From Armatimonadota bacterium (GTDB lineage: Bacteria; Armatimonadota; UBA5829; DTLH01), in NCBI GenBank assembly GCA_029551395.1, contig JAKPFN010000055.1:1-56984 (forward strand): a stretch of 56,984 bases of DNA. The letters are read 5' to 3'. Both the position numbers and the translations under genes were made by a program. Positions 8,662 through 53,185 of this stretch are shown here, in pieces. The notes below the pieces were generated by a model. It ran no database searches. It was not told the DNA's origin and saw only the letters and a list, made by a program, of their open reading frames with translations. Each line of letters begins with the position of its first letter. Within the stretch, counting starts at the first letter, position 1.

Positions 8662-9013
8662 TGGTGGAGGCGCCGGGACTTGAACCCGGGTCCAAAGAAG
8701 AGCTGACAGCAGCATCTACGCGCGTATCCTGTAATTTTTTATCTCGCCAGACGGACCCCTACAGGCCGGGTTCCTGCCTAAGCCAGCTCGTAGTGTGTCC
8801 TATCCCCGTTACGAGCATATAGGGATGAGCAATCCGACTCTGTTGACACCCGTATCCGGCCACGTCGGATTAGACCGGGCGGATGCGCCACTTAATTAAG
8901 CGGCGAGAGCGTAACTATTTGTGCCGTTTATTGGCTTGCCGCTTTTTACGAGGCCAGCGGCGCCTCGGCGCGCAACTAAAGCCGCTACTTCCCTGTCGAC
9001 TCCAATCGCCCCC
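8662..9013 (-). ncRNA. ssrA: transfer-messenger RNA (tmRNA)
   Basis: tmRNA rescues stalled ribosomes and tags the incomplete protein for proteolysis. The 5' end (GGGGGCG at 9013-9007) pairs with CGCCTCC before the encoded ACCA at the 3' end (8662), forming the tRNA-like acceptor. The T arm is the usual GGGTTCAAGTCCC-type sequence beside the 3' end, and the 5' GGGGGCGATTGGAGTCGACA block is characteristic of tmRNA. The tag frame on the minus strand reads GKPINGTNSYALAA and ends in TAA (near 8895), so the degradation signal is the standard YALAA. Length is about 352 nt, normal for one-piece tmRNA. It has its own promoter and terminator. Confidence 0.97.
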
Positions 9014-18178: not shown

Positions 18179-18272
18179 ACTGCCTCACTCCTTGGTCAAT
18201 AGCTGCGGATTTCTTACCCTGCGGAGATAATCGGAGAAACCAAGAGAGAATGACAACCTACACTCGGGACTA

Positions 18273-18402
18273 CACTCGGGCTAAATTTGCAATTTAGCCC
18301 GGAAATAATAACCAAGGGATTTACAATCCCGTTCTTGGCATTCAGATAATCATCCGGGATCATAGATCCATGTCCGGGAGGGATTGCAAATCCCTCCCGA
18401 GA
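18273..18402 (+). repeat. palindrome-rich dispersed element, copy 1
   Basis: About 130 bp built from three palindromes: an 11-bp-arm repeat CGGGCTAAATT with centre TGC (18277-18301), a shorter GGGATT with centre TAC (18316-18330), and CGGGAGGGATT with centre GCA (18375-18399). Each centre approximates ATTTGCAAAT. The element begins CACTCGGG and ends CCCGAG, giving short terminal inverted repeats. A homologous copy lies in opposite orientation at 53045-53185. The rest of this 350-base gap holds no gene. Confidence 0.8.
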
Positions 18403-18530
18403 GTAGTAGGGACATAAAAGGTCATTTCCCAAAATTGTGGGATGGTAGTGAACTTGTTTCAGGATCTCAAATTCGACATGACAGGAAGACGTCACCTATC
18501 ACTATATAAAGACTTGTTTTCCCGAAATAA

Positions 18531-42949: not shown

Positions 42950-43186
42950 AATTACCTCCAGGGGCAGGTGATTTTCGCCCCAATAGAAGTGTACCCCTGC
43001 CCAGATAGAGGTAAACTGAGCAGCCAGAACTCAAGTGAAACGGAATGAGAGCGAAGAAAAACTATTTATGGGGAAGATCAATCTCAAAGGAAAAATATCG
43101 AGAGATTCTGACTAACGAAACTATCGTCAGGATAGGTTGAATATTGCTTAATGTTGTAGAGAAAAGAAGACAGAAAATCTGTTACT

Positions 43187-43223
43187 GGTGACTGATAACT
43201 ACTGCCAGCAGCTATCAGTCACC
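43187..43223 (-). terminator. hairpin after leuS
   Basis: A perfect 11-bp stem (43187-43197 with 43213-43223, GGTGACTGATA and complement) lies 15 bases downstream of the leuS stop. An ATTTT tract follows about 12 bases later. The remaining 290-base gap shows nothing else. Confidence 0.6.
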
Positions 43224-43237
43224 TGTTCAACTTCAGA

Positions 43238-53044: not shown

Positions 53045-53185
53045 ACTCGGGATGGATTTGCAATCCCTCCTGGAGGTATAGCTGAGGAAATCTGTGATTC
53101 CGGATAATGGTCTGAAACTTCAATAACCAGGATTGCAAATCCTTCGGATATTCTTCCGGGCTAAATTGCAAATTTAGCCCGAGTG
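53045..53185 (-). repeat. palindrome-rich dispersed element, copy 2
   Basis: About 141 bp homologous, in reverse orientation, to 18273-18402. Its 25-base palindrome at 53157-53181 is identical as reverse complement to 18277-18301; the block after it (AGGATT with centre GCA at 53129-53143), the TTCAGA..ATCCGG..ATC spacer and the closing GGATGGATT-type palindrome (53048-53073) align in the same order. It occupies the gap between exbB and the tRNA promoter; the rest of the gap shows no gene. Confidence 0.8.

Follow-up and report, generated by a model that had tools for sequence, protein, structure and literature searches.

A REPIN-like family of double-hairpin repeats associated with a RAYT gene in an Armatimonadota genome

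Two copies of a palindromic element

The window analysed in this work (the whole stretch of 56,984 nucleotides from an Armatimonadota bacterium) contains two full-length copies of one element in opposite orientation, at the places where the initial annotation had noticed two related palindrome clusters. Both were located with a profile built from the family, and the strands given below follow the orientation of the gene for a REP-associated tyrosine transposase (RAYT) found inside another copy.

18273..18401, minus strand: copy 1, full-length element (family-built profile, E 3.6e-36)
18258..18269, minus strand: single 12-bp end iteron on the RE side of copy 1, CTACACTCGGGA ahead of CTACACTCGGGC
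18277..18301, minus strand: RE outer hairpin of copy 1, CGGGCTAAATT-TGC-AATTTAGCCCG
18316..18330, minus strand: P2 inner hairpin of copy 1, GGGATT-TAC-AATCCC
18357..18369, minus strand: P3 inner hairpin of copy 1, GGATC-ATA-GATCC, degenerate
18375..18399, minus strand: LE outer hairpin of copy 1, CGGGAGGGATT-GCA-AATCCCTCCCG
53046..53185, plus strand: copy 2, full-length element (family-built profile, E 1.5e-40)
53048..53072, plus strand: LE outer hairpin of copy 2, CGGGATGGATT-TGC-AATCCCTCCTG
53086..53101, plus strand: P3 inner hairpin of copy 2, GGAAATC-TGT-GATTCC, with one extra A
53129..53143, plus strand: P2 inner hairpin of copy 2, AGGATT-GCA-AATCCT
53157..53181, plus strand: RE outer hairpin of copy 2, CGGGCTAAATT-GCA-AATTTAGCCCG

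The copies are about 80% identical along their aligned length, and over a 32-nt end block they are 100% complementary. Their predicted folds are far more stable than those of shuffled sequences (z of -5.8 and -5.4). Each element has four hairpins rather than the three palindromes first described; in copy 1 the overlooked fourth (GGATC-ATA-GATCC on the plus strand) has lost its flank.

Other features of the window were recorded as well. A second dispersed palindromic repeat (GTCATTTCCCAAAATTGTGGGATGGTAGTGAACTTGTTTCAGGATCTC...; 18416-18495) adjoins copy 1 and has 18 matches in the genome, several of them beside elements of the main family. A tmRNA gene with the tag peptide GTNSYALAA lies on the minus strand at 8662-9013, and a 21-bp inverted repeat (86% complementary, 1-nt gap) lies between two long ORFs at 43184-43226.

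Architecture and covariation

The family element is about 139 bp long and intergenic, with the order LE (outer hairpin), P3 (inner), centre, P2 (inner) and RE (outer). P3 and P2 resemble each other when read on opposite strands, as do LE and RE. The element is thus built as an inverted dimer, whose unit is a double-hairpin end of about 60 nt. Because of this layout the covariance model matches both strands of many copies, and its 146 matches in the host genome include reverse-strand duplicates.

The proposal that pairing is kept despite base changes holds across the whole family: 98.3% of the cells in the stems are paired, and 19 cells have changed on both sides compared to 5.5 in shuffles, with none of 500 shuffles reaching as high a value. 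The RNAalifold consensus (model R1) joins P3 and P2 into a single long stem, and it is possible that the inner palindromes adopt either this stem or two separate hairpins. The sequence GC(T/C)(G/A)AGG stands ahead of the inner hairpins. A search of the family for the canonical 5' GT[AG]G tetranucleotide (the GTAG guide) at the foot of the hairpins did not find it.

Family size and distribution

Far from being present only twice, as the initial annotation had it, the element is represented in the host genome by at least 74 full-length and 56 partial copies after removal of duplicates, the latter including isolated LE halves and RE halves. These counts, obtained from genome searches and about 295 kb of contig sequence, are lower bounds, since several copies lie at contig ends; a BLAST-type search alone returned more than 40 strong places. 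Copies differ from one another by 15-20% and occur also as tandem dimers, and none of the 74 full-length copies is spanned by an ORF of at least 150 aa. The family consists of dispersed intergenic doublets of two palindromes in inverted orientation, as REPs and REPINs do.

Among 40 relatives, matches at the DNA level were found only in G001, a genome from the same taxonomic family as the host, where the covariance model gave 12 matches, reverse-strand duplicates included. Searches of plasmid and phage collections returned no match to the element. Many elements have yet another palindromic repeat (TCATGCCGAACTTGATTCGGCATCTC...CCTGAAACAAGTTCAGGGTGACG) next to them, e.g. in the right flanks at G000:C56:11481, C8:890 and C77:24744.

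A RAYT gene inside one copy

One copy, on contig C39, holds a RAYT gene in its centre, a transposase that the first reading of the window had missed; further copies lie on both sides. The locus (L042) is arranged as follows.

1319-1374: left half of the element
1408-1953: RAYT gene
1963-2018: right half of the element

The encoded protein scores 86.1 bits against NCBIfam NF047646 (cut-off 80), with its motifs intact: HAH at 60-62 (HUH) and the catalytic Y142 within an HNNP motif. It is 64% identical to a RAYT of Armatimonadetes bacterium UBA5829. Four RAYTs in the host genome score above the curated cut-off, and the C39 gene is single-copy, the next RAYTs being 42% and 35% identical to it. Thus, it has the attributes of a RAYT: a single-copy gene set between inverted palindromes of which copies occur throughout the genome. 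The right half of this copy is canonical, but its left hairpin (CTTGGGCTAGATT) differs from the common one (CTCGGGAGGGATT), which speaks against the C39 RAYT as the mobilising enzyme, as does the lack of a GTAG guide. Since the same two ends bracket the RAYT gene, the C39 locus is the predicted autonomous source of the family.

In most of the RAYTs of the class that were examined (e.g. L072-L076, L084), two hairpins, one outer and one inner, stand at either side of the gene, and their sequences vary between lineages. The sister genomes G002, G014 and G017 (the last from the same order as the host) encode RAYTs 61-65% identical to that of C39, and contain dispersed copies of the ends of their own RAYT, as found in a search queried with the left end of the RAYT of G002. 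The copies in G002 are four-hairpin elements of about 140 bp, with the same architecture and a different sequence. A second RAYT of the host, on C162 (L041:1000-2000), has double hairpins of its own (CCCGGGATGTGTATCCCGGG and GGCGGATATTTATCCGCC), with a few dispersed matching copies. In G001, which represents a sister genus, the L076 RAYT (G001:C137) has several 18-bp iterons in succession at its left end, and a search of that genome for dispersed copies of its ends recovered only its own two ends. The case for mobilisation in trans rests mainly on the correspondence between each type of element and its own transposase. Decayed direct repeats were also observed upstream of the C162 RAYT, and a third host RAYT (G000:C84; L039 / L067) is enclosed in long inverted repeats (GGAGTGCGAGG...CCTCGCACTCC type).

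The suspicion that these palindromes belong to a new REP- or MITE-like family is borne out by the many genomic copies, by a working covariance model and by the RAYT gene inside one of them. Judging from association and architecture, the two sites in the window are very probably copies of a RAYT-mobilised, REPIN-like miniature element. The grounds for likening its mode of action to that of REPINs are the RAYT gene inside one copy, the double hairpins that bracket it, and the sister elements that match the ends of their own RAYT. By the known chemistry of RAYTs, the protein would bind the hairpins in single-stranded DNA, nick the CT-rich foot that flanks the outer hairpin, and move or copy the short element in trans.

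Stuttered ends

The termini of the elements have a conserved foot. On the LE side, positions -5 to -1 outside the hexamer CTCGGG are nearly devoid of G; the RE foot reads CTANM on the opposite strand, on the 5' side of the hairpin, which provides a C-T step. According to a study of characterised RAYTs (PMC8266576), CT beside a hairpin is the dinucleotide that they cleave on single-stranded REP DNA, and its authors note that the 3' end freed by the cut could prime synthesis.

Tandem repetition of the terminus, in one or more copies (iterons), is seen at 36 of 68 left ends and at 34 of the 73 right ends, compared to about 0.14 expected per end. A stuttered end carries from 1 to 7 iterons, with unit lengths mostly of 15-19 bp on the left and 11-28 bp on the right. 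The foot of the outermost unit matches that of the next copy over at least 3 nt in 50% of cases on the left and 55% on the right (10% and 19%, respectively, with shuffled partners). Because this match mostly stops at 4-5 nt, we take the unit to comprise a foot of 4-5 nt and a part of the arm of the terminal hairpin. There is a weak indication that the arrays grow from the side of the element (P 0.008 by permutation and 0.05 by the Wilcoxon test, although chance matches at the far end confound these values). The copies inspected in sister genomes showed no iterons, which are therefore not obligatory; one element in G001 (L158) shows one iteron. None of the consulted passages of the REP literature describes end iterons in RAYT/REP systems.

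The iterons could have arisen in two ways, which differ only in this step and leave the identity of the element as it is; we consider them about equally likely. One, with close to an even chance of being correct, is replication slippage, in which the polymerase stalls in the outer hairpin, slips back to a point a few bases outside and recopies the end. It agrees with the inner breakpoints, which often fall within the arm of the hairpin or at the apex, in runs ending TTTGC, with the occurrence of larger local duplications (e.g. of about 250 bp at C18 and of 32 bp at C145), and with the existence of sister genomes that have similar hairpins and a RAYT and lack iterons in the inspected copies. 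However, simple slippage does not predict that the outer breakpoint should be confined as it is, with a shared flank mostly of 3-5 nt that ends at the conserved foot. The other is that the RAYT itself would nick the foot repeatedly, with synthesis of 10-20 nt from the free 3' end into the hairpin arm and resealing after each nick; we put this forward tentatively. A stronger proposal, less likely than not, is that the iterons preserve in the genome the traces of reactions catalysed by the RAYT in vivo, with one terminal unit added per cycle. In such a case the scars at the ends may record individual reaction cycles, and RAYTs would be nick-prime-reseal enzymes rather than cut-and-paste enzymes only.

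Alternative origins of the family

Host regulatory hairpins or protein-binding palindromes, such as terminators or RNA elements, would likewise be strictly intergenic, fold stably and accumulate compensatory changes. Nonetheless, it is very unlikely that the family represents such sites instead of mobile DNA: no Rfam family matches at the element, and the neighbouring ORF pairs of the full copies are of mixed orientation (34 tandem, 15 convergent and 9 divergent). The tandem dimers, the isolated halves, the degree of variation among copies and the match to the transposase locus also speak against a regulatory role.

Target duplications, which had been suggested as a further sign of mobility, were not seen at the ends of the elements: with direct or inverted repeats at offsets 0-13, no offset exceeded the shuffled pairing. 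The absence of target-site duplication is expected for the RAYT class of transposases. Longer duplications of the flanks (20-48 bp) occur at C18, C117, C132 and C145, and we considered them as long target duplications; those at C18 and C145 turned out to be tandem duplications of the flank together with the element. For this reason the longer flank duplications do not count here as signs of insertion. A classical MITE that depends on the DDE transposase of an ordinary insertion sequence would also be short and non-coding, with inverted-repeat ends and many intergenic copies, but the missing target-site duplication, the hairpin nature of the ends and the RAYT as the sole gene found inside a copy make this origin very unlikely as well.

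Relationship to known systems

Mobilisation by a RAYT, the reading that we favour, places the family among several groups of repeats associated with transposases of this class. In the openly available REP literature searched, RAYT-linked repeats were not found for Armatimonadota; relative to that literature, the present family extends such repeats to a further phylum. The mechanisms of REP dissemination are described as poorly understood (PMC8266576). In this context the family offers a clean system: a single transposase goes with a well-delimited element, the autonomous source can be seen, and sister genomes hold families that run in parallel.

With IS200/IS605 the system shares an HUH-Y1 transposase, subterminal hairpins and the lack of target duplication. 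It differs in that the C39 gene exists in a single copy and is recognised by the RAYT model; against the IS200 family PF01797 it scores below the cut-off. The atypical REPs of TnpA(Y1) subclass 2.6 and class 3 (Quentin 2018, PMC6006769) are similar at least in that hairpins bracket RAYT-like genes without GTAG and have copies elsewhere in the genome. The REPINs/BIME-1 and their RAYTs, as presented in Nunvar 2010 (PMC2817692) and Bertels and Rainey 2011 (PMC3116915), share with our family the intergenic inverted pair of palindromes, the single-copy cognate RAYT set in the same palindromes and the compensatory changes. In contrast to those REPINs, the elements described here have two hairpins per half instead of one, lack the 5' GT[AG]G and carry end iterons.

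The best match is with the little-studied TIRtron repeats (Di Nocera 2013, PMC3733652), which the text searched does not report from Armatimonadota. In the TIRtrons/TIRYTs, as at C39, a RAYT-like gene is enclosed in long GTAG-less inverted repeats; some of these repeats are double palindromes, and they are dispersed in single, dimeric or clustered form, as here. The present family likewise combines a gene bracketed by long GTAG-less inverted repeats with dispersed dimers, and differs from the TIRtrons of that account in its defined 139-bp dimer unit, its 74 or more copies and its end iterons.
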